64,000 nucleotides of DNA from Opitutus terrae PB90-1 (GTDB taxonomy: Bacteria; Verrucomicrobiota; Verrucomicrobiia; Opitutales; Opitutaceae): positions 3,357,001-3,421,000 of the forward strand of contig NC_010571.1 of the NCBI RefSeq assembly GCF_000019965.1. The letters run 5' to 3'. The position numbers and the translations under genes were made by a program. The notes beneath the pieces were generated by a model that did not search any database, was not told where the DNA came from, and worked only from the letters and a program-made list of their open reading frames with translations. Shown here in pieces: positions 1,034-31,552 of the stretch. How positions within the stretch are numbered: the first letter of the stretch is position 1; the number at the start of each line of letters is the position of its first letter.

Positions 1034-1279
1034 CTAGCTTTCCACCAACTCGGTTTTCCAGATCGCGAAGGCTTCCGGCCAGTCGCGTTCGGCGGCCAGG
1101 AATGCTTCCGGCCAGCCCTTCTTGATCAGATCGGCGGCCGTGTCGTCGTCCAGTTGGTTCAGGTATTCCGTGACCACGGCGCAGCGGTCGCGCCAGTTGG
1201 CAGGATACACACCGGAGGCCCAGCCATGCATGCGACGAAGATTATTATTACTGAGAACAGATTTGGGAGCTTGATTCAT
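1034..1279 (-). CDS. Small hypothetical protein, 81 aa
   Basis: Not recognised. The protein has a balanced composition unlike the Arg/Pro-rich shadow frames nearby: an N-terminal MNQAPKSVLSNNNLRR stretch, then RDRCAVVTEYLNQLDDDTAA and two WPEAF motifs (about residues 56-60 and 68-72) in an acidic, probably helical second half. There is one cysteine and no membrane segment. The ATG at 1279 is preceded by a weak GGAAA. A hairpin with a T-run follows the stop. The tandem WPEAF repeat suggests a small helical protein, but no function can be assigned. Confidence 0.6.
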   Translation of the reverse strand: MNQAPKSVLSNNNLRRMHGWASGVYPANWRDRCAVVTEYLNQLDDDTAADLIKKGWPEAFLAAERDWPEAFAIWKTELVES

Positions 1280-1808: not shown

Positions 1809-2417
1809 TCAGGCGCACGAGCCCACGATCAGTTCACGGCAATGCAGCTTCGCATACTCGATGTGAAACTGGGCGTTCTGCTGTCGCCAGAACAGGAACC
1901 ACTCGCGAGGAGTGAATCGCTCCTGAACCGCCGAGATGGGCAGAAAGACATGCAGCACGTGACGGTCGGCGTGGCGATCCGCGAGCTCGAGGAAAGCGTC
2001 GCCGCGCAGTTCGCGGGCGATCGGTTGCACGAATTCGCGTGCGGCCCGGGCCACCCGCGCTTCCCGCGCGAGCACGCTCGCGCGGGAGTGACCGAACGCG
2101 CCGAGGGCTTCGCGATCGTTGGCCCCGACGGGATAGAACACTTCGGGGCCCAGGCAGACGCCCAGTTTCGGCGTGAAAAACGTTCGCCCGGTCCGCCAGA
2201 TGCCGCCGAACAGACCGCGATAGCCGTGATGCGTGTACCAGAGCGCCTCGCCCTGCAGTCGCAGTTCGCGGTGCACGGATTCGACATTGTCGTTCGTGAG
2301 GAGCACGAACGGCGGAATCTGCGCGGCGGGCTTGGCCGCACGCGGGAAGGAGTAGTCGTTTTTCTTCGCGGGGCGCGCGGTGTGCGCGCGCGCATTGGGA
2401 ACCGGCGTCGTGCTCAT
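1809..2417 (-). CDS. Hypothetical protein, 202 aa
   Basis: Not recognised. The start at 2417 is chosen because GGAGG lies 7 bases upstream and the ATG overlaps the stop of the preceding small ORF as ATGA. The N-terminal 40 residues are basic and probably disordered. The rest is a globular-looking domain rich in aromatic residues, with LLTNDNVESVHREL, ALWYTHHGYRGLFGG and a C-terminal REWFLFWRQQNAQFHIEYAKLHC stretch (the longest quoted piece is shortened from about residues 165-190). No signal peptide or membrane helix is visible. It is the last gene of a run with an aldo/keto reductase-like gene and a ribosome-hibernation factor, so a role in the same stress or starvation response is plausible but unproven. 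Confidence 0.7.
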   Translation of the reverse strand: MSTTPVPNARAHTARPAKKNDYSFPRAAKPAAQIPPFVLLTNDNVESVHRELRLQGEALWYTHHGYRGLFGGIWRTGRTFFTPKLGVCLGPEVFYPVGANDREALGAFGHSRASVLAREARVARAAREFVQPIARELRGDAFLELADRHADRHVLHVFLPISAVQERFTPREWFLFWRQQNAQFHIEYAKLHCRELIVGSCA

Positions 2418-2689
2418 GCGAGGTCCTCCGCGTGGACGATGGCGGGATGGCGGCAGACGTCCCCGGCCGGTTCCGGCCGGCGGACGCTGATACCGCGGTC
2501 GGAGACCGAGGCCTGCCACTGGACGTCACTGGCCGTGCTGCAGCCGATCACGACGGCGCCGGACCAGGAGGCGCGCGCGGGGCGGCTACGGCGCCGTCGG
2601 GTGCGCGCGGCGGCGGTTTCGAATTGGTTCACGACGAGAACGCGGGTGCGATCGCCGTGACGGTGATGAGTGATGGCAAGTGTTTCCAT
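2414..2689 (-). CDS. Small hypothetical protein, 91 aa
   Basis: Not recognised. It lies between the hibernation factor and the 202-aa protein and its TGA overlaps the next ATG by four bases (ATGA), which supports translation. It begins METLAITHHRHGDRTRVLVV, followed by an Arg-rich stretch (about residues 28-38) and a less biased second half. No SD precedes the ATG at 2689. The Arg-rich part could equally be a by-product of GC-rich DNA, so the call rests mainly on its position. Confidence 0.45.
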   Translation of the reverse strand: METLAITHHRHGDRTRVLVVNQFETAAARTRRRRSRPARASWSGAVVIGCSTASDVQWQASVSDRGISVRRPEPAGDVCRHPAIVHAEDLA

Positions 2690-2769: not shown

Positions 2770-3165
2770 TCAGGAAGCGACCAGGCGCGGCGACACCGTC
2801 GTGCGATCGCGATACGCGCGGATATCATCCATGGCGCGCTGCCGCATCCGAACCGTGGCCCGTCGGCGGAGCATCCGGTCGAGGCGGTCGATCAGCCAGT
2901 CGATGGATTTGTAGGCGTCGTTCGAGACCACGGACGCCAGCAGATCCGGCCCGTGCAGTTCGATCCGTCCCTTGGCGACGAACAAAGCAACGCCGTTGCG
3001 GTGCTCGCGGTCCAGGTCGACACGCACGCGAATGATGCGCGGTTCATGGCGGAAGAGCCGCTCGGCCTTGGTTTCGATGGTGGATCTCAACGCATCGGTG
3101 AGCCACAGGCGGATGCCGCGGATAACGAGCTTGGTCTCGAGTTCACGAGCTGTGGTGTGTTTCAT
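2770..3165 (-). CDS. Ribosome hibernation promoting factor / RaiA family protein (short form), copy 1
   Basis: 131 residues. The HPF/YfiA fold is recognisable over residues 10-110: VIRGIRLWLTDALRSTIETKAERLF, then RVRVDLD, the AKGRIELHGPDL strand and the helix IDWLIDRLDRMLRR. Proteins of this family bind the decoding region of the 30S subunit in stationary phase and silence 70S ribosomes. The C-terminal dimerisation domain of long HPFs is absent. It begins 25 bases after the aldo/keto reductase-like gene and is probably cotranscribed with it. A second, better conserved copy lies at 31172-31552. Confidence 0.85.
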   Translation of the reverse strand: MKHTTARELETKLVIRGIRLWLTDALRSTIETKAERLFRHEPRIIRVRVDLDREHRNGVALFVAKGRIELHGPDLLASVVSNDAYKSIDWLIDRLDRMLRRRATVRMRQRAMDDIRAYRDRTTVSPRLVAS

Positions 3166-3190: not shown

Positions 3191-4252
3191 CTAGACGGTC
3201 AGGAGTTCGTTTTCGCGAGCGACTTCCGTCGTCGCGGTGGGGGAGGTGGAGCTCGGGTCGACGGTTGCGTCGCGCAGTGGCAGATGCGTGCGCTGCACGG
3301 TGGAGGCGCGATCGAGCCGTTCGAGGTCCGAGGCGCTGAGCGACAACTCGCCCGCAGCGACGATTTCGCGCAGCAGCGCAACCGAATTGGCGCCAATCAG
3401 CGCCGAGGTGACGTGCGGGTGGTGGAGCACCCACGCCAGCGCGATTTGCGCGGGCGTGCGGTCGTGTTCGTGGGCGAGCTGGTTCACCGTCCGCACGACC
3501 TTTGCGCCGCAGTCGAACCCGTAACGCTCGACGAGCCAACGGAGCCGGGACGTGCCCAACGCGAGCGAACTGCCCTCGCGCTTCGCCAGCAGGCCTCCGG
3601 CCAGCGGGGAGCGGGCGATCAGCCCCAGCCGGTACGTCTCGCACGCCCCGCCGAGTTCGGTTTCGACGCGGGCTCGGGCGAGCAGCGAATAGTCGGCCTG
3701 GAGGGCGTCGATCCGGCAGTGGTTGGCGCGATAGCCAGCGTGGATTTCGTTGACGAGCCGCCACGCCGGAAGTTCGGCGAACGCGAGGTAGCGCAGGCGG
3801 CCCGTGCGCACCGACTGGTCCAGCACGGCGCGAATCGCAGGCGCGATCCGCTGTGGCCCGGCCCACTCGCAGACGAGCAAATCCAGATAGTCCGTCTGGA
3901 AGCGCGCGAGCGAGTCGTCGATGCTACGCTGCAGCTGCTTCGCGAGGTCCTCCTCGGTGAGGTCCCGCGCTTCGCGCAGGCTGATGCGCGTGGCCAGAAC
4001 CAGCGCCGAGCGCGCGTGACCGCGCGCGCGCCACCAGCGGCCGACCACGGCTTCGGAGGCGGCGACCGAGGCGGGACCGTCGTCGACGCCGGGATTGGGC
4101 GCGAGCGCCTGGATGAAGTTGCCGCCCGCGGCATGGTAGGCGTCGAGGACGGCGAGTGAAGTGGATTCACCAATACGCCAGCCGAAGTTCATGGTGCCGA
4201 GGCAGAACTCGGGCAGCTGGGCGCCGGTGCAACCGAAGGAGCGTTGCTTCAT
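3191..4252 (-). CDS. Aldo/keto reductase-fold protein with all four catalytic residues replaced (AKR-like 1)
   Basis: 353 residues with the overall AKR (beta/alpha)8 layout: N-terminal FCLGTMNFG, the strand AAGGNFI, the mid-barrel LQADYSLL, ARSPLAGGLL and the NADPH-side motif ALAWVLHHPHVTSALIGANS. In active AKRs the tetrad is Asp-Tyr-Lys-His. Here the equivalent positions read Gln48, Asn53, Arg89 (LATRIS) and Glu129 (VCEW), so normal carbonyl reduction is unlikely. A C-terminal tail after residue 325 is low-complexity. It heads the leftward operon with the hibernation factor. A paralogue with the same substitutions is at 8524-9567. The fold is clear; the activity is unknown. Confidence 0.88.
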   Translation of the reverse strand: MKQRSFGCTGAQLPEFCLGTMNFGWRIGESTSLAVLDAYHAAGGNFIQALAPNPGVDDGPASVAASEAVVGRWWRARGHARSALVLATRISLREARDLTEEDLAKQLQRSIDDSLARFQTDYLDLLVCEWAGPQRIAPAIRAVLDQSVRTGRLRYLAFAELPAWRLVNEIHAGYRANHCRIDALQADYSLLARARVETELGGACETYRLGLIARSPLAGGLLAKREGSSLALGTSRLRWLVERYGFDCGAKVVRTVNQLAHEHDRTPAQIALAWVLHHPHVTSALIGANSVALLREIVAAGELSLSASDLERLDRASTVQRTHLPLRDATVDPSSTSPTATTEVARENELLTV

Positions 4253-4900
4253 AGTAAGTCACGAGCTAAGGGTTGGGACATGACGGACCAAAGCCCGTCA
4301 GGAGGGTAGGTGACCAACAGCGTCGACGGCGCCCGAAGGGCTCGTCCGCTGGTGCGGAAACCGTATCCGCGGCGCGCCGGCGCTGGTGAGCGGCGAGCCG
4401 GATCTACATCCCTAGCTCGTCTGACTCACCGCGCCGGCAAGGCCGGGAAGATGACAACTACATGGAGTAATTGTCGGGAGGCTGTGGGGAAAAACTTCAT
4501 TGGGTTCAGCAGCCGCGGGGACCAATGCGTGACGATTTTGTTCTGTCAAGTTTTTTTGCAGAAAAAATTTGACATCGGTGCGAAAGACACGGATCTAAAG
4601 ATCCATGATCCGCCGCACCCTCCAATTTGCTTGCTGCATCCGACCGCTCCACGCGGTACGGACGGGAGTCGCGTGGATCTTCCTTGGCTAACCCGGGCCT
4701 GAGCTGAAGCGACGCGGGCCTTGTCCGCGATAGAGCCAGCTCCGGATCCCGGTTTTTCGAATACGTCACGCTAACGCGTGCGCTGCGCCTGGGCGCAACC
4801 GTCGGTTTACCCCGTCTTTCCCCTGATCGTCCAGACCGCCACGACGCGGTCGGCATCCACCCGGCACCCGCCTGTCCGGCCTCGAACCCCATCAACCCCC
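4253..4900. other. Divergent intergenic region with unusual AT-rich inverted repeat, about 650 bases
   Basis: It lies between the divergent AKR-like 1 and Rnk-like 1 genes. ORFs on either strand show no family motif and I do not call them. It contains the AT-rich inverted repeat at 4544-4574, promoter-like sequence at 4569-4599 and the short palindrome GGATCTAAAGATCC at 4591-4604. Confidence 0.5.
4569..4599 (+). promoter_or_regulatory. Candidate promoter for the rightward Rnk/metallophosphoesterase block
   Basis: A consensus TTGACA (4569-4574) is followed 19 bases later by TCTAAA (4594-4599, 4 of 6 matches to TATAAT). The -10 lies inside the palindrome GGATCTAAAGATCC (4591-4604), a possible operator. 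The leader to the Rnk-like gene would be about 300 bases. An inverted TGTCAA at 4544-4549 gives a face-to-face -35-like element on the other strand. Confidence 0.45.
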
Positions 4901-5389
4901 ATGGATACCATTTACATCACCACTGAGGACAACGCCCGGCTGCGCCTGCTCCTTTTGCTCAGTCCCTACACCGATACGCGTCAACGCGAGCGCGAACTGT
5001 TGCGCCGCGGACTGGACCGCGCGGCCATTCTGCCGCTCTCGGCCGACTGGCCGGAAGCGATCCGGCTGGGCGTCGCTTTCGAATATGAGGATCTCGACAA
5101 CGGCGTGATCCACACCGGCTGCCTGTGCCTGCCGGACGAGGAGGCGACGACGGCGCACGGAATCCCGGTGCTCTCTCGTTTTGGTGCCGCGGTGATCGGC
5201 TGCTGCGTGGGCAACGAAGTCTGGTGGGCGGAGATGGACCGTTCCCGGCGCATCCTGGTTCGCCGCGTCGGCACGGCCGTGGCGCACGAGCCTGGCCCGG
5301 AGGCTCTCGCCGCGGATGCCGCTCTGGCCGAACCAGCGGCGCTCGAACCGCAATTTGGGCCCGGCCGCGCCGAATTGCAGACCGCCTAG
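4901..5389 (+). CDS. Rnk-like protein with GreA/GreB C-terminal domain, copy 1
   Basis: 162 residues. The N-terminal part (1-50) has the Rnk pattern IYITTEDNARLRLLL and ELLRRGLDRA. Residues 60-130 form the GreA/GreB C-terminal (FKBP-like) domain, with IRLGVAFEYEDLDNG, GIPVLSRFGAAVIG and GNEVWW. The long coiled coil with acidic tip of true GreA is absent. Family members bind RNA polymerase near the secondary channel and in E. coli Rnk affects nucleoside diphosphate kinase levels; here the role is inferred. The C-terminal 30 residues are Ala/Glu-rich and unstructured. A second copy lies at 6559-6990. Confidence 0.85.
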   Translation: MDTIYITTEDNARLRLLLLLSPYTDTRQRERELLRRGLDRAAILPLSADWPEAIRLGVAFEYEDLDNGVIHTGCLCLPDEEATTAHGIPVLSRFGAAVIGCCVGNEVWWAEMDRSRRILVRRVGTAVAHEPGPEALAADAALAEPAALEPQFGPGRAELQTA

Positions 5390-5782
5390 CGCGCCGGCGC
5401 ACGCCCCTCTGTCGCCATGCTCAGACGCATTTACGTCTTCAGCTTTTCGTCCTGTGCGTGCCGCGCCCGCGGCGGGCGGCACGTCGGGGACGGAGCGGCA
5501 CGGGCCAAGCGGTCGGTCATTCACGACTGTCCCGGATAGCCCGCCCGCGAGTCCGCGCGGGAGCCCAGTGACTCAGCTACGCTGAGCCGCGGCTCGCGGC
5601 CGAGTGCGGGCAGCGAAGAGCTGCCCGGCGCTGGCCTGCAGCCGATCTCGGCCCCCGGCGCACCGCCGCTGTCGGCGCCCGTTCTCGACGAACCTCGATC
5701 CCATTGCGCCGCCCGGGCGAAGCCGCGAGCGCGAATCCTCCCACTCCTTCCACTTTCCACTCCTTCGTCCACTCCCTTCGTC
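5390..5782. other. Intergenic stretch between Rnk-like 1 and the metallophosphoesterase, about 390 bases
   Basis: No supported gene was found. It contains a GC-rich imperfect hairpin at 5458-5482 (GTGCC pairing with GGCAC around a GCCC/GGGC core), which could terminate the Rnk-like transcript, and a small hairpin CTCAGC-TAC-GCTGAG around 5574-5588. No T-run follows either. Confidence 0.4.
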
Positions 5783-6490
5783 ATGATCATCCTTCACGTC
5801 ACCGATCTTCACTTCAACCAGCGCTGGTATGACTGGCTATCGGACCGCGCGCCGGCGCACGACGTGCTGGTACTTTCCGGCGACTTGCTTGATCTGGCAA
5901 ACGCAACGCCGGCAGCCCGGCAGGCCGCCTGGGTCAGCGATTGGGCGCAGAGCATCGGCACGCCGATGTGCGTGTGCAGCGGGAATCACGATCTGGAATG
6001 GGACAGCGCCCTCGAGCGCTGGCGGCCGGCATTGTGGCTGCGCGATCTGGCCGGTCCCACGCGCTGGATTGATGGCCAGGCCGGTACGATCGGCGGGCTC
6101 CGCTTCCTCAGCATCGGCTGCGCCACGCGGCCGAAGGGCGGCGAAGCCGACGTCTGGGTCGTGCACGCTCCACCCATCGGCGTGCTGACCGGCCGGCGGA
6201 TCGGTGGCCGCGACGGCGGCGACCCGGAACTCGCCGCGCGCGTTGCGCGTTTCGCTCCGCAGATCGTCTGCTCGGGCCACGTCCACGATCCGACGCATTG
6301 GTGCGCCCGCTCCGGCGGGACGCTGTATCTGAATCCTGGGCATACCGCCGATGCGCTGGTTCCGAACCACATCCTGATCGATACGGAACAAATGCATGCC
6401 CGCGGCGTGATGGGCTGCCGCGTGGCGGAAACCGTCGCCGGGCCAACCGCCCGGGAGCTCGCGACGCCCGCGGCGGCCGTCCCCGGGTGA
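5783..6490 (+). CDS. Metallophosphoesterase (calcineurin-like)
   Basis: 235 residues with the complete metal-site series of the family in order: TDLHF (Asp8, His10), LSGDLLDL (about 31-38), SGNHDLEW (about 66-73), WVVHAPP (about 124-130) and GHVHDP (about 159-164). These residues hold the dinuclear metal centre that hydrolyses phosphomonoesters or diesters. No signal peptide is present, so it is cytoplasmic. It sits between the two Rnk-like genes, each in the same orientation; the pairing hints at nucleotide or stress signalling. The physiological substrate cannot be told from sequence. Confidence 0.9.
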   Translation: MIILHVTDLHFNQRWYDWLSDRAPAHDVLVLSGDLLDLANATPAARQAAWVSDWAQSIGTPMCVCSGNHDLEWDSALERWRPALWLRDLAGPTRWIDGQAGTIGGLRFLSIGCATRPKGGEADVWVVHAPPIGVLTGRRIGGRDGGDPELAARVARFAPQIVCSGHVHDPTHWCARSGGTLYLNPGHTADALVPNHILIDTEQMHARGVMGCRVAETVAGPTARELATPAAAVPG

Positions 6491-6558
6491 GCCGCTCAAC
6501 CCCTCCATCGACCCTCCAACCACTAACCTCCCTCTCGAAACCCAAACATAACAAAAGC

Positions 6559-6990
6559 ATGAATACCAGTCCCCTCTACTTCTCCATCGAAGATTACACC
6601 AAGCTCAGCCTCCTGGCCACGGCCACCAGCCGGCCCGGTACGCCGAGCCAGCTCCGGAGCGAATTGAGCCGCGGCGTCGTGGTCGACGCGACCGCGCTGC
6701 CGCCGACCGCGATCCGGCTCGGCTCGACCGTCGAAATCGAGGATCTTGAATCCGGCGAGATCGAAACCTACACGCTGGTGCTGCCCGAGCAGGCCAACGT
6801 CGACGCGCGCAAGCTCTCGGTGCTCGCCCCGATCGGAACGGCGGTCATCGGCTGCCTGCAGGGCGCGGAGGTGGCGTGGTCCACGCCGGGCGGAACCCGG
6901 CGACTCCGCATCGGCCGGGTGAGTCCGCCCGCCGAACCGGCCACGCCGGTCGGACTGACGCTGCCGTTGGCGCTACCCAGCGCCTCGTAG
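6559..6990 (+). CDS. Rnk-like protein with GreA/GreB C-terminal domain, copy 2
   Basis: 143 residues. It begins LYFSIEDYTKLSLLATA, followed by a short helix with SQLRSELSRGVVVD and the GreA/B C-terminal domain (about 55-120): IRLGSTVEIEDLESGE, LSVLAPIGTAVIGCLQG and WSTPGGTRRLRIGRV. It is collinear with copy 1 but diverged in sequence, and its tail is also Pro/Ala-rich. Presumed target is RNA polymerase, by family. The ATG at 6559 follows a purine-rich ACAAAAGC and no strong SD. Confidence 0.85.
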   Translation: MNTSPLYFSIEDYTKLSLLATATSRPGTPSQLRSELSRGVVVDATALPPTAIRLGSTVEIEDLESGEIETYTLVLPEQANVDARKLSVLAPIGTAVIGCLQGAEVAWSTPGGTRRLRIGRVSPPAEPATPVGLTLPLALPSAS

Positions 6991-7049
6991 ACCCCGCCGC
7001 AGGGCGATCGCGCCCTGCGGCTTGCCCCCACGAACCCATCCCTCCAGCC

Positions 7050-8495
7050 ATGGAATTCAAGAATCGCATTGTCCTCATTGGTTTTGGCGTCGTCGCGCGC
7101 GCGCTGCTTCCGCTCTTGATCAAGCATCTGCGCGTCGCGCCGGCTCGTATCGTCGTCATCGACTTCGCGAATCGGGAAGCCGCGCTCCAGCCGTGGATCG
7201 CGAAAGGCCTGAAGTTTATCCATGAACGGGTCACCCCGTTCAGCTTGGCGCGGCTGTTGTCATCGCATGCCGGCCGCGGCGATCTGATCGTCGATCTGGC
7301 CTGGAGCATCGACTTCTTCGACATCGCGCGCTGGGCGCACGAGAACGAGGTCGTCTACGTCAACGCCTCGCTCGAGTCGTGGGATCCCGGTGAGGAGATG
7401 CAGCGCAAGACGCCATTCGAGAAGTCGCTCTACGCCCGTTACGCGAAACTGCTGCCGTTGCGCGAAGCGTGGCGCGGTGCGACGACGGCGCTCGTCGATC
7501 AGGGGGCGAATCCCGGATTGATCTCGCCGTTCGTCAAAGCCGGGCTGCTCGACATCGCGGCGGCCGTGGTCGAGGAAAAGAAAGTTCCCGGCCCGATCGT
7601 GCGACGATTGCGGCAGGCGAGCCAGGCGGGGAATTTCGCCGAGTTGGCCCGCACGCTCGGCGTCAAAACGATTCACTGCAGCGAGTGGGACACCCAGCGC
7701 TCGAACGTGGCGAAGTCGCCGGACGAGTTCGTGTCGACATGGAGCCCCGACGCGATGTGGGAGGAATCCATCTCGCCTTCGGAGCTCGGCTGGGGGACGC
7801 ACGAAAAGCAGCTGCCGCCCGCGGCGCTGCAGCCGGAAGTCGGACCACGCAATCAGATCATCCTGCCGCACATGGGCCTCAACACCTGGGTGCGCTCGTG
7901 GGTGCCGAACCAGGAGATCGTCGGAATGCTGATGGCGCACGGCGAATCGTTCGGATTGTCGCACGCGCTGACGGTGTACAAGAACGGCCGGCCGGTTTAT
8001 CGGCCGACAGTCAACTACTCGTACATGCCCTGTGCGGACAGCCTCGTCTCATTGCACGAGCTGCGCGCCCGCAACTACGAGCTGCACCCCAAGACGCGGA
8101 TTCCGACCGACGAGATCGTGGCGGGGACGGACGTCGTGGGCGCATTGATCATGGGGCACCCATTCGGCGCCTGGTGGATCGGGAGCATTCTCTCGATCGA
8201 CGAGGCCCGGAAGAAAGTGCCCGGCTGCAATGCGACGGCGTTGCAGGTCGCGAGCGGCGTGCTCGCGGGTACGTTGTGGGCGCTGCGCAATCCCCGCGCG
8301 GGCCTCCGGCTGCCCGAGGACCTCCCGCATCGCGAGATTCTCGATACCGCCCGCCCGTATCTGGGGCAGTTCGTGTCGGTTCGGTCCGATTGGACGCCGC
8401 TCAGCCGGCACCGCGAATATTTCACCGACGGTCCCGCCAGCACGGTCGACCGATCGGATCCCTGGCAGTTTCAAAACTTCATCTTCAAACCCTAG
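7050..8495 (+). CDS. hss: Homospermidine synthase
   Basis: 481 residues, the usual size for bacterial homospermidine synthase, which joins two putrescines (or putrescine and spermidine) to homospermidine using NAD as a prosthetic redox carrier. The N-terminal Rossmann motif IVLIGFGVVARALLPLL and the saccharopine dehydrogenase-like layout are clear. Family segments include LVDQGANPGLISPFVK, SEWDTQRS, HEKQLPPAALQPEVGPRNQ (shortened) and YMPCADSL. ATG 7050 is chosen over upstream in-frame codons because the Rossmann strand follows directly. It lies 28 bases upstream of AKR-like 2. Polyamine production fits the stress theme of the block. Confidence 0.92.
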   Translation: MEFKNRIVLIGFGVVARALLPLLIKHLRVAPARIVVIDFANREAALQPWIAKGLKFIHERVTPFSLARLLSSHAGRGDLIVDLAWSIDFFDIARWAHENEVVYVNASLESWDPGEEMQRKTPFEKSLYARYAKLLPLREAWRGATTALVDQGANPGLISPFVKAGLLDIAAAVVEEKKVPGPIVRRLRQASQAGNFAELARTLGVKTIHCSEWDTQRSNVAKSPDEFVSTWSPDAMWEESISPSELGWGTHEKQLPPAALQPEVGPRNQIILPHMGLNTWVRSWVPNQEIVGMLMAHGESFGLSHALTVYKNGRPVYRPTVNYSYMPCADSLVSLHELRARNYELHPKTRIPTDEIVAGTDVVGALIMGHPFGAWWIGSILSIDEARKKVPGCNATALQVASGVLAGTLWALRNPRAGLRLPEDLPHREILDTARPYLGQFVSVRSDWTPLSRHREYFTDGPASTVDRSDPWQFQNFIFKP

Positions 8496-8523
8496 CCGGC
8501 GCCGCCGGCCTGAGCTGATCCCC

Positions 8524-9567
8524 ATGCGAACTTCCCAATTCGGAGAAACCTCCCTCACTGTTTCCGAACTTTGTCTCGGCACGTCGACCTTCGCGCGTTA
8601 CGCGAACCAGCAGGAAAGCTTTGCGATCCTGGACGCGTTTCGCGCGGCGGGCGGCAACCTGATTCAGACCAGCGGACAGTGCCCCGGCGCGAGCCTCGGC
8701 GACGGGCTGCTCGGCTGGCCCGAGGAGTTCCTGGGTCGCTGGATGAGAGCGCGGAGCGTGCCGCGGAGCGAGCTGATCATCGGCACGCGGATCGCGGTGG
8801 CGAAGCCGGTCGTGGGCGGAGTGAAAGCGTATCAGCAGGCGATGCTGGACTGCGTGCATGATTCGCTGCGCCGGATGGGCCTCGCCCATCTCGACCTTCT
8901 GCTCGTCGAGTGGACGAGTGATCTGTTGCCGCTGGAAGAGAGCATGGCCTGCTTGGACGCGCTCGTCCGGCGCGGCGTGGTACGTCACGTGGTGGCAGCG
9001 CATTTCCCGGTCGAGCATCTGGCGCAAGCCTGCGGCGCGCGGCCGACCGCACTCGATGGCGTGCAACTCGACTACTCGCTCGTCTATCGTGCGCGCTACG
9101 AAATGGACGCCGCGCCGCTGTGCCGCGAGCACGGGCTCGGCTTCATCGCGCGTTCGCCGCTCGCCGGCGGCTATCTGGTCTCGACGCCGCCGCCGCGGAT
9201 CGGCTCGTTCCGCTGTCGCACCTACGATGATCCGGCGGCGGCGCAAGCGGCTGGTCGCGGTTGGTCAACCCTGTCCGCGGTCGCAACGGCCCACTGCGGT
9301 TCGCCGGCGCAGATCGCGCTGGCCTGGGTCCTGGGTCAGCCGCGCGTCGACGCTGTGCTAATCAGCGCGCGCGATGTGCTACAACTGCGCGAGCTGATCG
9401 GGGCGACCGGCTTGACGCTCTCGTCTGAGGACCGGCACCGATTGGAGGCTGCGACGGAACCTTCAGGCGACGGCGCGGGACGATCGAGAGATGAAATATC
9501 CGAGCGCGTCCGCTTCGGTGAGACTGGCCGCCTCGGGCACGGGGCGCTGGTGAAAGGACAGGTGTGA
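8524..9567 (+). CDS. Aldo/keto reductase-fold protein with all four catalytic residues replaced (AKR-like 2)
   Basis: 347 residues, paralogous to AKR-like 1 and collinear with it. AKR landmarks are present: LCLGTSTFA, AAGGNLI, VQLDYSLVYRARYE, IARSPLAGGYLV and ALAWVLGQPRVDAVLISARD. The tetrad positions read Gln48, Cys53, Arg89 (GTRIA) and Glu129 (VEW) in place of Asp, Tyr, Lys and His. Three of the four replacements are identical to those in the paralogue. The start follows the homospermidine synthase stop by 28 bases. The TGA at 9565-9567 overlaps the next ATG. Normal reductase chemistry is unlikely; a binding or regulatory role is an inference. Confidence 0.88.
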   Translation: MRTSQFGETSLTVSELCLGTSTFARYANQQESFAILDAFRAAGGNLIQTSGQCPGASLGDGLLGWPEEFLGRWMRARSVPRSELIIGTRIAVAKPVVGGVKAYQQAMLDCVHDSLRRMGLAHLDLLLVEWTSDLLPLEESMACLDALVRRGVVRHVVAAHFPVEHLAQACGARPTALDGVQLDYSLVYRARYEMDAAPLCREHGLGFIARSPLAGGYLVSTPPPRIGSFRCRTYDDPAAAQAAGRGWSTLSAVATAHCGSPAQIALAWVLGQPRVDAVLISARDVLQLRELIGATGLTLSSEDRHRLEAATEPSGDGAGRSRDEISERVRFGETGRLGHGALVKGQV

Positions 9568-9815
9568 TGATTTCGATTCCATCTCCAGGTCGTCGCGGCG
9601 GCGCGGCGATGCGTTGCGGTCCGGAATGCCGGCATGCGGAGCGGTTGCGCTCGCCCTATGCCGAGTGGGTCTGGTGTCACCGTCACGACGCCACGCAGCG
9701 GCTCCATCACGAACGTTCCTGGTGCCAGCATTACAGCGCCGGTTCGCGCGACGCTCGCGGGTCCGGACGAGCGGCGGCGGCATTCCAGCGCGCGAGGGAG
9801 GAAGCAGCATCATGA
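9567..9815 (+). CDS. Small Cys/His-rich ORF, 82 aa, coupled on both sides
   Basis: Not recognised. Its ATG overlaps the stop of AKR-like 2 (TGATG, 9565-9569) and its TGA overlaps the ATG of the PAS gene (ATGA, 9812-9815). The product is rich in Cys and His in a zinc-ribbon-like spread (CGPECRH, WVWCHRHD, LHHERSWCQHY) and ends in an Ala/Arg/Glu helix. The double overlap is the main support; no homologous family is known to me, and a non-coding spacer is still possible. Confidence 0.5.
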   Translation: MISIPSPGRRGGAAMRCGPECRHAERLRSPYAEWVWCHRHDATQRLHHERSWCQHYSAGSRDARGSGRAAAAFQRAREEAAS

Positions 9816-10360
9816 ACACGAGATCGTTCCAGAATCCCTTCAGCGGAGAAGCCCCGGCTGGAGCCGTGATGGCGGCTCTGGCGCGGTTGCTGGCGAACCT
9901 GCCGGGCTTTGTTTACCGGAGCCGGCCGGACGCGCAGCGCACGATGGAATTTGTGAGCGATCGTTGCCGCGATCTCACGGGTTACGATCCCCATCGTTTC
10001 ATCGAAAACCAGAGTCTTACCTACGGGGCCCTGATTCATCCGGCTGACCGGGCTCGGGTGGACGGCATCATCTTTAATGCGGCGGCGCGGGGCCGGCGGT
10101 TCACCTGCGGGTATCGGCTGCAGACCGCGTACGGCGGTTGCGTGGAAGTCGTGGACCGGGGCGTGGGTGTGCTGGACGAAACCGGTGCGCTGTGCGCGAT
10201 CGAAGGTTATATCTACCGTGCGGACGGAGCGCGAGAGCCGGGCGAGCTCGACGTGCCTGGCGTGCTGGACGTTGACGACGCCACCTCCGAGTTAGTCGAC
10301 CGGATGCTCCGCACGCGCACTCCCGACGTGCCTGCGCCGATTCCCACGGCGATCGAGTGA
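9812..10360 (+). CDS. Stand-alone PAS-domain protein
   Basis: 182 residues. A PAS fold-3 type domain covers about residues 28-130: LPGFVYRSRPDAQRTMEFVSD, LTGYDPHRFI, the typical LIHPADRARVD and the closing strands YRLQTAYGGCVEVVDRGVGVLDETGA. There is no kinase, GGDEF or HTH output domain and no membrane segment, so it would sense or dimerise and act on a partner. GGGAGG lies about 10 bases before ATG 9812. It closes the rightward block. Confidence 0.85.
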   Translation: MNTRSFQNPFSGEAPAGAVMAALARLLANLPGFVYRSRPDAQRTMEFVSDRCRDLTGYDPHRFIENQSLTYGALIHPADRARVDGIIFNAAARGRRFTCGYRLQTAYGGCVEVVDRGVGVLDETGALCAIEGYIYRADGAREPGELDVPGVLDVDDATSELVDRMLRTRTPDVPAPIPTAIE

Positions 10361-10541
10361 CGCTACCGCGGGCGAGGAGTCTTCCCTCGCGGCGCAACGG
10401 CAGCTGACGGCTCGCCGCGTCACGCGGGGCGACAGCGCGGCGGGGGTGGAATTTAGCCTCGGGCCCTCCGATTCGGGAGTCGGCTGATCCCTGAACCGCC
10501 GGATTGTGAATAACAAATCGCGGATTCCGCCCCGTCTTTGC

Positions 10542-10571
10542 TTGACGTTGGTGGGTTGAATTGGGTTGAAA
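10542..10571 (+). promoter_or_regulatory. Candidate promoter of the dcw cluster
   Basis: TTGACG (10542-10547) is followed after 18 bases by TTGAAA (10566-10571), a weak -10. The putative spacer and -10 lie within the MraZ boxes, so repressor binding there would block polymerase. Confidence 0.45.
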
Positions 10572-10590
10572 TGGGGCACTTTGGGGCACT
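10551..10590 (+). promoter_or_regulatory. MraZ operator: four tandem 10-bp TGGG repeats
   Basis: TGGG occurs at 10552, 10562, 10572 and 10582, an exact 10-bp period. The units read in pairs, GTGGGTTGAA/TTGGGTTGAA then ATGGGGCACT/TTGGGGCACT. MraZ in other bacteria binds three or four TGGG-type repeats spaced 10 bp upstream of its own gene. The array ends 16 bases before the mraZ start, so it is a strong candidate for autoregulation of the whole cluster. Confidence 0.88.
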
Positions 10591-10606
10591 TGGCGGTTCC
10601 CCACCC

Positions 10607-11059
10607 ATGGCGCAACCCGGCAAAGCTTTCTACACGGGCCTTTTCAGGCACACCCTCGACGACAAGTTTCGGCTCACGATTCCGTCGGCGTGGCGCACTG
10701 CGCACGGGGAAGGCGACATGTTTCTCGCGACGCCGCATCCGGACGGCTACATCGCGGTGTTGCCGCCGGCTGAGGTGGAGAAACTCCACGCGAAAATCGC
10801 GCAAATCGCGTTGAGCGACGGCGGCGGTCAGGATTTCGCCGCGCGGTTTTTTGCGCAGACGCAGTCGTTCTCCTTCGACAAGGCCGGTCGCATCGGTCTC
10901 GAAGACGCGTTGCTGTCCCACGCGGGGATCGAGCGCGATGCCGTGCTCGTGGGCTCGCTGACCAAGTTTAACATCTACGCTCCGGCGCGCTGGGAGAAAG
11001 TCGAGGCGCGCACCGCGGGCGAGAACTTCGGCGACCTCATGCGCCGCCTGGGGGTTTGA
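10607..11059 (+). CDS. mraZ: Transcriptional regulator MraZ
   Basis: 150 residues, normal family length. Both AbrB-like halves are visible: YTGLFRHTLDDKFRLTIPSAWR (shortened; about residues 8-28) and FSFDKAGRIGLEDALLSHAG (about 85-104), the latter with the DKxGRI consensus. MraZ forms a ring-shaped oligomer that binds TGGG repeats and controls the dcw operon. ATG 10607 (MAQPGKAFY) is preferred over upstream in-frame starts because those would overlap the operator repeats. The stop lies 2 bases before a small ORF at 11062. Confidence 0.95.
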   Translation: MAQPGKAFYTGLFRHTLDDKFRLTIPSAWRTAHGEGDMFLATPHPDGYIAVLPPAEVEKLHAKIAQIALSDGGGQDFAARFFAQTQSFSFDKAGRIGLEDALLSHAGIERDAVLVGSLTKFNIYAPARWEKVEARTAGENFGDLMRRLGV

Positions 11060-11061
11060 GC

Positions 11062-11271
11062 ATGTCGCACCACGCTCGCTCCGTCCTCAAGCGCTCCCGC
11101 CGGCAAACCGCCAAAGCCGCCGCTCGGCGCGCCGCGAACGCCGCGCGCGAGACTCCAGGCGTTGTGACCGACGCGACGCCGATCGCGCGGGTGCGCGACG
11201 GCCTCGTGCTGCGTGCCGTCCGCCAACCTTCCAGTTCGAGGAACCAGCCCGATGAGCGCGGCGCTTGCTGA
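11062..11271 (+). CDS. Small basic ORF between mraZ and rsmH, 69 aa
   Basis: Not recognised. The N-terminal half is strongly basic ([20 protein letters not shown] and a run of Arg/Ala, likely helical), the second half is more neutral with [17 protein letters not shown]. The ATG lies 2 bases after the mraZ stop and the ORF overlaps the rsmH start by 20 bases, so it fills a gap that would otherwise be 192 bases long in a tightly packed operon. Two ORFs of similar size sit in other dcw gaps (17698, 19015). Position is the main support. Confidence 0.5.
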
Positions 11272-12208
11272 AACTCCGCTCGCGACCATGACGCCGGGTC
11301 ACCAGCCTGTCCTGCTCCGCGAAGTGCTGGGTTTTCTCGCCCCGCGCGCCCGCGGACGCTACCTGGATTGCACCTTCGGCGGCGGTGGACACACCCGCGC
11401 GCTGCTGGAAGCGGCGGCGGAGGTTCGCGTCGTGGCGCTCGATCGCGATCCGGCAGCGCAGCCCCGCGCGGCTGCATTGCGCGAGACGTTCGGCGAGCGG
11501 TTTGAATTTATCGATCGCGACTTCGGCCGGCTCGCGGAGCTTCCGCACGAAGGTTTCGACGGCGTGCTGTTTGATTTCGGCGTCTCGTCGTTTCAACTCG
11601 ACGAGACGGAGCGCGGCTTCTCGTTCCGGCACGACGCGCCGGCGGACATGCGCATGGATCCGCGGAGTGGGGTGCCGGCAAGCCAGTGGCTCGAGACCGC
11701 CACGGAGGAAATGCTGGTCCGAGCGATACGCGATTTTGGAGAGGAACAACACTGGCGGCGGATCGTGCGAGCGATTCGCGACGCGCGGGGCACGGGCGCG
11801 CTGGCGCGGACGGCTTCGCTCGCTGAGTTGATTGCGGCGGCGATTCCCGCGTGCGACCGGCATGCGGCGAAGATCCATCCGGCGACGCGCGCGTTTCAAG
11901 GCGTTCGGATCGCGGTGAACGACGAGATCGGCGCGATCGAGCGCGCACTGCCGGCGGCGTTCGCCAAACTCGCGCCCGGCGGCGTGCTGTGCGTCATCAG
12001 TTTCCATTCGCTCGAGGATCGTCCGGCCAAGCAATTCTTCCGCCGGATGTGCGGCCAACCCGAAAGCGCCGCTGATGCTACGCCGCAGGATCTGCGCGTG
12101 AAGCTCGCCGATCCGTTGACCCGTCGGCCCGTCACGCCCGCCGACGACGAACTCGCCGCCAACCCCCGCAGCCGCTCGGCCAAGCTCCGCGCGCTGCGCC
12201 GACTCTGA
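11252..12208 (+). CDS. rsmH: 16S rRNA (cytosine(1402)-N4)-methyltransferase RsmH (MraW)
   Basis: 318 residues. It methylates N4 of C1402 in the ribosomal P site using SAM. The SAM motif is [16 protein letters not shown] (about residues 37-52), and family signatures follow: [45 protein letters not shown] and the C-terminal [10 protein letters not shown]. Start 11252 is chosen for GAGGAA 8 bases upstream; ATG 11288 ([10 protein letters not shown]) is the shorter alternative. Second recognised gene of the dcw cluster. Confidence 0.95.
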
Positions 12209-12236
12209 TCTTCCCGCCCCCATCCGACCCCGGCAG

Positions 12237-12626
12237 ATGAACACGTTTTCAACCCACGGCTTCGTCAACCAGCTCATGGTGTATACGCTCGTGATGATCG
12301 GCTTCAGCGGCTCGATCGGCTTGGGCACGGTCTGGATGCGGCATCAAATCTCGGTGACGGCCAACTCCACGCGCCAGCTGGCGGCGCGCATCACCGAAGT
12401 CGAGCGGCACCTGGCCGAGACGACCGCGGCGGCGGAAAGCGAGCGCGATCCCGACGTGTTGCTGCGACGCAACGTCGAATGGCGGCTCGGCCTCGTTCCG
12501 CCCAGCCAAAACCAGATTGTCCATGTGACGCAGGATCCGGTCCTCAATCTTGCCGCCAAACGCAACCGCGGCCTCTTCGGTGATCGTCCGGCAACGGTCT
12601 CCTTCCCGCTGGCGCTGCAGCGCTGA
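12237..12626 (+). CDS. ftsL: FtsL/DivIC-like cell division protein
   Basis: 129 residues. One membrane helix (about 12-33) follows a short cytoplasmic N-terminus, then an Ala/Glu-rich coiled-coil segment (about 36-70) with LAARITEVERHLAETTAAAES, and a periplasmic tail. Sequence similarity to FtsL is always low; the call rests on topology, size and the canonical place between rsmH and ftsI. FtsL would join FtsB and FtsQ in the divisome and activate FtsW-FtsI. Confidence 0.72.
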   Translation: MNTFSTHGFVNQLMVYTLVMIGFSGSIGLGTVWMRHQISVTANSTRQLAARITEVERHLAETTAAAESERDPDVLLRRNVEWRLGLVPPSQNQIVHVTQDPVLNLAAKRNRGLFGDRPATVSFPLALQR

Positions 12627-12631
12627 CCGCC

Positions 12632-14599
12632 ATGTCGAAGGGCTTCGCCTCCAGTTACCGCCTCGTCCTGCTCGCGGTGGCGATTGTCGGCGGTTTCTGC
12701 GCGCTCGGCGTGCGGCTGGTTTTCCTGCACGTGATCGATCGCGAGGAGTTGGTGCGCGTCGTCGAGAAGGCGCGTCGCCAGATCATCGCCGAGCCGGCGC
12801 GCCGCGGCGACATCGTTTCCTCGCGCGCGACCGCCCGCGGCAACCTGCAGGAGCGCGCGTTGGATCGGCGCGAGAGCATCCTGGCCACGAGCCGGTCGAT
12901 GATCATCCTCGGTGTCGATCCGCAATCGCTGCGGCCCGAGGACGAGAAAAAGTGGCCGCAGCTGGCGGAGTTGATCGGTCTGCCGCTGCGCGACCTCGAA
13001 CGGGTGTTTCGCACCAAAACGCGGCCGGTGACCGCGAAAGGCGAAGCGGCCGAGGCAAATCCGTTCCTCAGCGCCCTGGCCGGGAAAACCGAGGAGGAGG
13101 CGGAGGAACCCGATTTCGTTGCCGAGTCGCAGGCGAACGATGCGGTGGACGCGAACGGCGAACGGCCGATTCGCTGGGCCAAGCTGAGTGAGAACGTCAG
13201 CGAAGGGACCTACACGCTGATCCGGCAGCTGAATATCCGCGGGGTTTATGGCAACCGCGTCTATCGCCGCACTTATCCGCACAACAGTCTGGCGGCGCAC
13301 CTCATCGGTTACGTGAACAAGGCCGGTGAAGCCGCGGATGGCGTGGAACGCTACGCGGACTTCTACCTGCGCGGTCGTGATGGCTGGCGGGAAGGTGAGC
13401 GCGACGGCAAGGGCCGCGAAGTCGCGCAGTTCCGCACGCGCGAGGTGGCGCCGTCCGACGGCTACTCCGTGGTGCTCTCGATCGATACCGCGGTGCAGCA
13501 CATGGCCGAGGAGGAACTGGCGAACATCGCCGCGACCCTCAATCCGCAGAAGGCCACGATCATCATCAGCGATCCGAACACCGGGTTCATCTGGGCGATG
13601 GCCAACTACCCGACCTTCGATCTCAACACCTACAGCAAGATTCCCAAAAGCCAGCAGCGTGTGATGCGCAACGTCGCTGTCGCCGACATCTACGAGCCGG
13701 GCTCGACGTTCAAGATCGTGGCGCTGTCCGGCGCGTTGAACGAGGGCGTGGTCACGCCCGAGACCCGGTTCGACTGCAGCATCACGAGCGTGATGGACGA
13801 TCTCGGCAAGATGCGCAGCCTGCCGGGCGAGGATCACCGTTTCACCGAGCCATTGTCCGTGGCTCAGATCGCCTCGAAATCGAGCAATCGCGGCGCCGCG
13901 CAGCTCGCGATCCAGCTTGGCCGGCAGCGCTTCTACGACTACGCGCACGCCTTCGGCTTCGGCGAACGCACGGGATTCCCCGTCGGCGCCGAGGAGAACG
14001 GCGTGTTGACCTCGCCGAAATCGCCGAACTGGGACGGGCTCACCATCACCCGCATGCCGATGGGCCACTCCGTCGACGCGACGGCGCTGCAGATGCACAT
14101 GGCGATGGGCGTGATCGCGAGCGGCGGCGAACTGCTGCGGCCGCAAATCATCAGGGAGATCCGCGATGCCTCCGGCGAAGTGGTTTATCGTTACGGCCCG
14201 GTCGTGAAACACCGCGCGATCTCGACGCAAACCGCGCGAACGATGCGCCGGCTGCTGCAAGGCGTCGTGATCGAGGGCACGGGCCGGCAGGCCGCGATTC
14301 CGAATTTCGAAGTCGCGGGCAAGACCGGCTCGACGCAGAAGCTGATCGACGGCGTCTACTCCAGCCAGCACCACGTCGCTTCGTTCGTCGGGTTTTTTCC
14401 GGCCAGCCAGCCGCAGGTTGCGATCTCCGTCATTGTGGACGACGCTAACCCGTTGAAAGGCCCGTACGCGTCCGGCGGGACGGTCGCGGCGCCTTCCTTC
14501 AAGCGGCTTGGTGAACAGCTTATCCAGTATCTTGATATCAGGCCCGTCTATTCCGAGGCGGGCACCAGCAACCTTGCCATGGGGGGACTCCGCCGGTGA
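12632..14599 (+). CDS. ftsI: Division-specific transpeptidase FtsI (PBP3)
   Basis: 655 residues. An N-terminal anchor (about 9-31) precedes the PBP dimerisation domain and a class B transpeptidase domain. Active-site motifs are STFK with nucleophile Ser358, the SSN motif at 417-419 and KTG at 564-566. It cross-links septal peptidoglycan outside the membrane. An acidic insertion (about residues 135-185, rich in Glu/Ala) lengthens the pedestal domain compared with E. coli FtsI. The gene starts 5 bases after ftsL. Confidence 0.95.
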   Translation: MSKGFASSYRLVLLAVAIVGGFCALGVRLVFLHVIDREELVRVVEKARRQIIAEPARRGDIVSSRATARGNLQERALDRRESILATSRSMIILGVDPQSLRPEDEKKWPQLAELIGLPLRDLERVFRTKTRPVTAKGEAAEANPFLSALAGKTEEEAEEPDFVAESQANDAVDANGERPIRWAKLSENVSEGTYTLIRQLNIRGVYGNRVYRRTYPHNSLAAHLIGYVNKAGEAADGVERYADFYLRGRDGWREGERDGKGREVAQFRTREVAPSDGYSVVLSIDTAVQHMAEEELANIAATLNPQKATIIISDPNTGFIWAMANYPTFDLNTYSKIPKSQQRVMRNVAVADIYEPGSTFKIVALSGALNEGVVTPETRFDCSITSVMDDLGKMRSLPGEDHRFTEPLSVAQIASKSSNRGAAQLAIQLGRQRFYDYAHAFGFGERTGFPVGAEENGVLTSPKSPNWDGLTITRMPMGHSVDATALQMHMAMGVIASGGELLRPQIIREIRDASGEVVYRYGPVVKHRAISTQTARTMRRLLQGVVIEGTGRQAAIPNFEVAGKTGSTQKLIDGVYSSQHHVASFVGFFPASQPQVAISVIVDDANPLKGPYASGGTVAAPSFKRLGEQLIQYLDIRPVYSEAGTSNLAMGGLRR

Positions 14600-31171: not shown

Positions 31172-31552
31172 TCAGACGGCTTTAGGGAGAGCCACTTGTT
31201 GATCGATCTGCTCCACGGCGGGAAGATTGTGTCGGCGCACCTTGTACATGTGGTGGCGCTTGCTCAGCATGCGATCGAGCTTGTCGATGAGCAGCGAGAT
31301 CGCCTTGTGGCATTCGTCCGCTTGGACGACGGCGTTGAGGTCCGGACCATGGATTTCGACATGGCCCTTGGCCTTGAACCGGGTGGCGACCGCCTCCTTG
31401 GAGTCGCACTCGAGTTCGACGCGGACCCGAATGATCCGCTCCTCATGACGAAACAGACGTTCGGCCTTTTCTCGAACGAAGTACTTCAAGGACGGAGTGA
31501 GTTCGAGATGAATGCCCGATACGATGACTTCGTGGTTGTTTTGTCTGTTCAT
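31172..31552 (-). CDS. hpf: Ribosome hibernation promoting factor / RaiA family protein (short form), copy 2
   Basis: 126 residues. The fold covers residues 8-105: VIVSGIHLELTPSLKYFVREKAERLF, RVRVELECDS, FKAKGHVEIHGPDLNAVV and ISLLIDKLDRMLSKRHH. It is a short form without the C-terminal dimerisation domain, and shares KAERLFRHE.RIIRVRV with copy 1 at 2770-3165. Expected role is inactivation or protection of ribosomes in stationary phase. It is monocistronic with a clear terminator and divergent from the SDR gene. Confidence 0.92.
   Translation of the reverse strand: MNRQNNHEVIVSGIHLELTPSLKYFVREKAERLFRHEERIIRVRVELECDSKEAVATRFKAKGHVEIHGPDLNAVVQADECHKAISLLIDKLDRMLSKRHHMYKVRRHNLPAVEQIDQQVALPKAV

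Follow-up and report, generated by a model that had tools for sequence, protein, structure and literature searches.

Can an aldo/keto reductase (AKR) barrel lose the catalytic tetrad by which AKRs are nearly defined and still be kept, and if so, for what? The question is raised by two genes in a 64,000-nucleotide stretch of the Opitutus terrae PB90-1 genome (NC_010571.1, positions 3,357,001 to 3,421,000), here called the window, meaning the whole stretch of DNA that was analysed. Their products, P1 and P2, have the AKR fold and carry other residues at all four tetrad positions. They belong to a clade of tetrad-less AKR-fold proteins for which we use the name AKRq. Taking together the lost tetrad, the signs of selection and the linkage to genes for Rnk-like proteins and for HPF, we put the probability at about 60% that AKRq proteins are pseudoenzymes kept as binding or regulatory partners in a growth-arrest module.

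Tetrad positions in P1 and P2

The two genes are:

3191..4252, minus strand: P1, 353 amino acids, tetrad-less AKR-fold protein with Q48, N53, R89 and E129; heads the leftward unit
8524..9567, plus strand: P2, 347 amino acids, tetrad-less AKR-fold protein with Q48, C53, R89 and E129; lies in the rightward unit

Pfam family PF00248 matches the whole barrel of both proteins (P1: 2.9e-45, 155 bits; P2: 3.7e-42, 144.8 bits; curated cut-off 24). P1 and P2 are 36% identical, and their pairwise alignment is gap-free up to residue 129, so the numbers of the tetrad residues agree. In alignments to solved AKRs, Q48 of both proteins falls on the DepB Asp and R89 on the DepB Lys. E129 of P1 is aligned with the His in the AKRtyl motif QFHHVD and E129 of P2 with the His in the DepB motif QMHAWD; the P1-DepB alignment is shifted by one residue near 129 because of an insertion. 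C53 of P2 takes the position of the DepB Tyr, and the P1 counterpart of that Tyr depends on the aligner. Where a functional AKR has Asp-Tyr-Lys-His, P1 therefore has Q-N-R-E and P2 has Q-C-R-E. An earlier reading of this DNA from its letters (the sequence-only reading) had reported this replacement at equal numbering, and the alignments and the P1 model described below confirm it.

An intact tetrad elsewhere in the active site was also looked for. P1 has no Tyr in 44-66, no Lys in 84-92 and no His near 129, hence no shifted intact tetrad in these stretches. The missing residues and the alignments to solved AKRs rule out such a tetrad in P1 and P2.

An AlphaFold model of P1, made with 25 sequences, is predicted to be an AKR barrel (predicted local distance difference test, pLDDT, 85.5; predicted template modelling score 0.83). 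Barrel strands two (46-50), three (85-92) and four (123-130) carry residues 48, 89 and 129, respectively. Confidence is lowest in 323-353 (pLDDT <50). It is also reduced, with averages of 60-72 per ten residues, across 221-250 and at 51-60; the latter block has a pLDDT of 69, so the surroundings of residue 53 are less certain. The fold matches are 7utf (Z 37.1), DepB (8hwn, 36.5), Tas (1lqa, 36.0), Kv-beta (35.3) and AKRtyl (8jwk, 35.2), and superposition on the beta/alpha barrel of 7utf_B gives a root-mean-square deviation of 2.0 over 288 aligned residues. DepB and 7utf share the barrel and are the closest solved relatives by sequence as well as by P1 fold (8hwn matches P1 at 4.5e-40 and P2 at 2e-32). 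DepB uses NADPH and, unlike AKRq, shows all four tetrad residues (D, Y, K and H) at the expected positions of the alignments.

The AKRq clade

Relatives were collected from three samples: 200 family genomes, each searched with P1 and with P2, 273 genomes of the order, and 387 of the phylum, the last at E <= 1e-75. These searches score few candidates per genome under tight E-value limits and may undercount AKRq genes. In a tree of 77 AKRs (30 from the clade and 47 with intact tetrads), built with the four tetrad columns omitted, a single branch sets apart the 30 tetrad-less proteins (Shimodaira-Hasegawa-like approximate likelihood ratio test 100, length 0.83). The nearest group is an Opitutaceae paralogue with an intact Asp-Tyr-Lys-His tetrad (DYKH), the "GGNFIDTADIYTTW" paralogue (for example L001, in the O. 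terrae genome); its join to AKRq has a support of 89 and is drawn open.

P1 and P2 are not recent duplicates. They fall into distinct sub-lineages, marked in the tree as sets of seven and three rows, and since both sub-lineages belong to one tetrad-less clade, the substitutions predate their split. The sequence-only reading had held that the change came before the duplication and was kept afterwards. Its first half stands on the tree; its second half stands in part, as Q48, R89 and E129 occur together in only 21 of the 30 members that the homologue search brought in.

The clade seems narrowly distributed. Its members come from Opitutaceae (f1) and another family of the same order (f11). In the phylum sample 13 genomes matched, nine with AKRq and four with the intact sister only, and all 13 are from two families of the order of O. 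terrae. The best 80 of 540 loci in a broader genome scan contain six AKRq proteins, in five loci (L071-L074 and L097, titled Verrucomicrobiota, Candidatus Didemnitutus, Verrucomicrobiia, Opitutaceae and Opitutus). All 76 remaining AKRs of these 80 loci have DYKH. A search of the O. terrae genome itself (5,957,605 bases, a single contig) gave 11 AKR matches including P1 and P2, and the other nine all have DYKH. P1 matched 1299 plasmid records, each of them below 60% identity. The titles and abstract openings of open-licence literature on tetrad-less AKRs gave no account of the clade.

Asp48 and Lys89 are absent from all 30 AKRq members. Residues 48, 89, 129 and 214 read QRER in 18 members, QRDR in two and QRQE in two, with eight singletons (QQRR, QRHR, QRET, QREQ, QRNS, LTRQ, HRER and QREE). 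Q48 and R89 are each present in 28 of 30 and rank, by conservation, in the top eighth of AKRq sites; position 53 is unconstrained and among the most variable. Compared with intact relatives, AKRq shows type-II shifts jointly at 48, 89, 129 and 214, and the barrel residues G43, G44, E67, W73, D124, R154, L217 and W274 are retained. One member (L041) has neither the tetrad nor the Q/R/E residues. R89 is missing from two members only (L018 and L041), exactly the two with Arg at 129, a coincidence with a chance of 1 in 435 if rows are independent. We read it as pointing to an Arg89-Glu129 pair in place of the Asp48-Lys89 pair.

The cofactor site can be judged against AKRtyl (AKR12D), an active NADPH reductase with the same fold as P1. 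According to the AKRtyl study (PMC10923870), its nicotinamide stacks on Trp214, the carboxamide touches Ser160, Asn161 and Gln186, the tetrad includes Tyr53 and His130, and Y53F by itself abolished activity. Matched by eye in the P1-AKRtyl alignment, these published contacts map onto R214, A159, E160, Q185, the region of N53, and E129 of P1. The 47 intact tree proteins invariably have Ser at 159 and an aromatic residue (Y, W or F) at 214. In AKRq, position 214 is never aromatic (R23 E3 Q2 T1 S1), position 159 is A15 S9 G5 T1, and Asn is found at 160 in nine of 30. G224-K225-Y226 and Q293, near-universal in the intact proteins, are lost or mixed. Q185 is retained in 29 of 30 and T20 in 24 of 30, and P216 and L217 are largely retained. 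The AKRtyl contact residues are thus mostly replaced, several cofactor-contact sites appear eroded, and AKRq may have lost cofactor binding.

The barrel itself nevertheless appears to be kept under selection. The ratio of nonsynonymous to synonymous substitution rates (dN/dS), estimated for close pairs by two counting methods, is 0.05 to 0.21 in six AKRq pairs, four of them within one genus and not independent. It is 0.30 in a seventh pair, computable by one method only, and was computable by neither method in an eighth. The intact sister has values of 0.03 to 0.20 in eight pairs, five of them by one method only. Mean site entropy is 1.88 bits in AKRq and 0.66 in the intact sister, with AKRq also spanning more divergence.

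Genomic partners and candidate roles

Neighbours were counted over a 3 kb range for 31 AKRq genes in 28 loci, namely the 30 genes of the tree, which came from AKR searches, and one (L232) that came from a search with Rnk. A Rnk-like gene lies within this range of 25 of the 31 (19 on the same strand) and an HPF gene of 11, all on the same strand; a metallophosphoesterase gene is near 10 and a homospermidine synthase gene near seven. Each of the 31 has inside this range at least one gene of the Rnk-like, HPF and homospermidine synthase families. By contrast, the same queries found no Rnk-like, metallophosphoesterase or homospermidine synthase gene at 20 loci of the "GGNFIDTADIYTTW" paralogue, some of whose contigs end less than 3 kb from the gene; for the Rnk-like gene (25/31 versus 0/20) Fisher's test gives 3.7e-9. 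This paralogue also differs from AKRq in having kept DYKH and in being less variable. An HPF gene stands beside it in two of the 20 loci, on the opposite strand, and was not counted as sharing an operon.

In three loci (L185, L192 and L195) the AKRq and Rnk frames overlap by 4 bases. Apart from the partner families named above and one small protein (7 of 29), no neighbour family recurs in more than 4 of the 29 compared stretches, so the link exceeds shared surroundings. The divergent "stress-type operons" proposed in the sequence-only reading are real and recur in other genera. L192 has one run (8631-13199) of AKRq, phosphoesterase, Rnk, phosphoesterase, AKRq and Rnk genes. L201 (8138-12668) has one Rnk-like gene between two homospermidine synthase genes, just before the AKRq gene, and in L073 (between 7046 and 9648) the second AKRq gene is followed by a 777-amino-acid frame and then a small conserved protein.

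The association also holds between genomes. In the family sample 48 of 200 genomes match Rnk-like proteins strongly, a count that excludes four weaker hits at E 1e-13 to 1e-14. A Rnk-like gene is present in all 24 AKRq carriers and in 24 of 176 non-carriers. Two carriers, G139 and G194 (whose copy is cut), came from the Rnk search and are assigned by similarity instead of the tree; without them the figures are 22 of 22 carriers and 26 of 178 others. By genus, all 14 carrier genera are among the 26 of 49 that show any Rnk-like match, strong or weak (p 1.4e-5). In the order sample, the three AKRq-bearing genomes of f11 have Rnk-like genes too, 33 to 39 bp downstream of AKRq.

If AKRq proteins are pseudoenzyme partners, the pair Asp48-Lys89, by which the catalytic Tyr is tuned, would have given way to Arg89 paired with Glu129, joined by Gln48 and in most members by Arg214. 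The rebuilt pocket would be closed or anion-binding and without hydride chemistry. AKRq would then act by binding a small ligand or its operon partners, and this binding would tune the Rnk/HPF growth-arrest response, which covers RNA polymerase occupancy as well as ribosome hibernation, the process that HPF family proteins promote. A fuller version, in which the reductase barrel has become a cofactor-free partner of Rnk-like and HPF proteins and its Gln-Arg-Glu(-Arg) pocket senses an anionic signal, is put forward tentatively. A precedent for the general idea is found in the Kv-beta potassium-channel subunits, in which an AKR barrel serves as a subunit of a regulatory complex. Kv-beta retains NADPH binding; in AKRq the cofactor site looks eroded at the sequence level, and the genes linked to it are those for Rnk-like proteins and HPF.

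Several observations weigh against the pseudoenzyme-partner reading. E129 (22 of 30) and R214 (23 of 30) are not invariant. A Tyr aligns at 53 in a single member (L183), and a His occupies 129 in another (L022). Arg or Ala also stands at 214 in four of the nine intact O. terrae AKRs (Arg in L006, L007 and L008, Ala in L009; more distant DYKH proteins, outside the tree), and residue 214 is therefore not diagnostic by itself. The Arg89-Glu129 pair is itself deduced from sequence letters. HPF, phosphoesterase and synthase genes each accompany only a minority of AKRq genes. The genomes are related, so that Fisher values overstate independence, and Rnk-like proteins encoded next to AKRq supplied most of the Rnk profile and queries. 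Finally, a common operon is no proof of contact.

The residues that replaced the tetrad could instead form a rebuilt active site, with Gln-Arg-Glu and Arg214 serving an NADPH-free isomerase, lyase or hydrolase whose substrate is perhaps a polyamine- or nucleotide-linked metabolite. The strong conservation of Q48 and R89 next to a freely varying position 53, the joint type-II shifts, and the homospermidine synthase or metallophosphoesterase found near a minority of the genes would all fit. An active site should, however, be stricter than E129 and R214 are here, L018 and L041 have lost the Arg89/Glu129 pair, and the commonest neighbour belongs to a regulator family instead of being a pathway enzyme; we regard new chemistry as unlikely. 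The sequence-only reading had favoured a non-reductase, perhaps binding or regulatory, subfamily, or else new chemistry. The joint Q/R/E residues, the free position 53, the eroded cofactor sites and the low dN/dS are what such a subfamily should show, tempered by the variation at 129, and they would suit a regulator and new chemistry alike. Less likely still is a sensor like Kv-beta, which would bind NAD(P)(H) unreacted and report redox state to its partners. It would explain the retention of Q185, T20, P216 and L217 and accord with the fold matches of P1 to NADPH-bound Tas and to Kv-beta, and the Arg at 214 of intact O. terrae AKRs leaves room for it. The Ser-Asn pair of the carboxamide site, the GKY loop and Q293 have either gone or become mixed in AKRq, which speaks against it.

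That AKRq still reduces carbonyls through a cryptic or alternative tetrad is very improbable. The AKR fold and Pfam match are clear, and single members have the Tyr or the His noted above. No member has Asp48 or Lys89, Tyr53 is confined to L183, and in AKRtyl the Y53F change alone was enough to abolish activity (PMC10923870). We give least credence to decaying duplicates without function. The high site entropy (in a clade that also has the wider divergence), one cut copy (L233) and L041 with its missing motifs hint at decay; dN/dS is well below 1 in every computable pair, and AKRq is kept, with recurring partners, across 14 genera of the family sample.

As pseudoenzyme partners, AKRq proteins would represent a clean evolutionary experiment from enzyme to non-enzyme, with the tetrad replaced once, the barrel apparently under selection and a link to Rnk-like genes. 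A metabolic-enzyme fold would have been recruited into growth-arrest control and an old enzyme turned into a stress-response partner. AKRq may also offer a handle on Rnk, given a Rnk-like gene in every sampled Opitutaceae carrier (24/24). A 2015 review (PMC4598747) describes the function of Rnk as unknown.

The divergent units in the window

In the window P1 is followed 25 bp on by an HPF-like gene. The rightward unit, divergent from it, runs from a Rnk-like paralogue through a metallophosphoesterase, a Rnk-like gene and a homospermidine synthase to P2 and a PAS-domain protein. Besides P1 and P2, the features are:

2770..3165, minus strand: HPF/YfiA-like ribosome hibernation factor (PF02482 1.4e-13; TIGR00741 46.9 bits, above its cut-off of 40.9)
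4544..4574, no strand: inverted element TGTCAA-N19-TTGACA between the two divergent units
4901..5389, plus strand: diverged Rnk-like paralogue of the GreA/GreB C-terminal type, which opens the rightward unit
5783..6490, plus strand: calcineurin-like metallophosphoesterase (PF00149 4.3e-11, PF12850 2.4e-11)
6559..6990, plus strand: Rnk-like protein of the RNA polymerase secondary-channel factor family (PF01272, GreA_GreB, 2e-19)
7050..8495, plus strand: homospermidine synthase, 28 bp before P2 (best solved match 2ph5, 4.1e-96; Pfam Sacchrp_dh domains)
9794..10360, plus strand: PAS-domain protein after P2, weakly linked (PF08447 7.5e-12; start uncertain, 9794 or 9869)

The product of 6559-6990 scores 87 bits against PRK05753 (NCBIfam), below the cut-off of 109, and relatives score 105 and 94.5; it is therefore named Rnk-like only. 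A profile of 18 Rnk-like proteins matches 2pn0 (5.9e-33) and 3bmb (1.5e-26), the latter a "regulator of nucleoside diphosphate kinase", which places 6559-6990 in the Rnk-like/GreA-GreB C-terminal family. The 4901-5389 paralogue is more diverged. It has no Pfam match, its longer frame (4889-5389) reaches 41.6 bits against the same PRK05753 cut-off, and its match to the Rnk profile (2.2e-44) comes from a profile that includes its own row. Relatives of the PAS protein lie between two AKRq genes in L073 and near a Rnk-like gene in L221. The HPF-like gene at 2770-3165 is one of five HPF matches in the genome. A second HPF-like gene lies in the window about 28 kb from the first (31250-31528, minus strand; genome C1:3388250-3388528).

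The inverted element matches once in the window against 0.01 expected, and could represent paired -35 boxes or an operator. Its exact form occurs in 13 of 262 fetched loci, which reduce to five distinct places (the window, G104, G081, G182 and G006). In each of them it lies upstream of a P1-lineage gene that has a divergent neighbour. Five of the seven P1-lineage genes thus have it, and the other two (L016/L189 and L029/L198) lack the exact element. Its middle bases vary and the spacer is 19 to 21. The exact form was used because a relaxed one, with one mismatch per half, gave 36 hits in 409,799 bases. A scan of 4200-5000 for sigma-70 promoters and terminators found none. Outside the window the element is in L197, L071, L203 and L188, and no unrelated fetched locus has the exact form.

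After the HPF gene, frames 1809-2417 and 2414-2689 (minus strand) overlap by four bases and are without a Pfam match. Further on, at 1034-1231 (minus strand), lies a small protein, also without a Pfam match, of 65 amino acids as called; its relatives, of 66 to 83, also occur close to AKRq in six further loci (L072, L073, L186, L188, L198 and L202).

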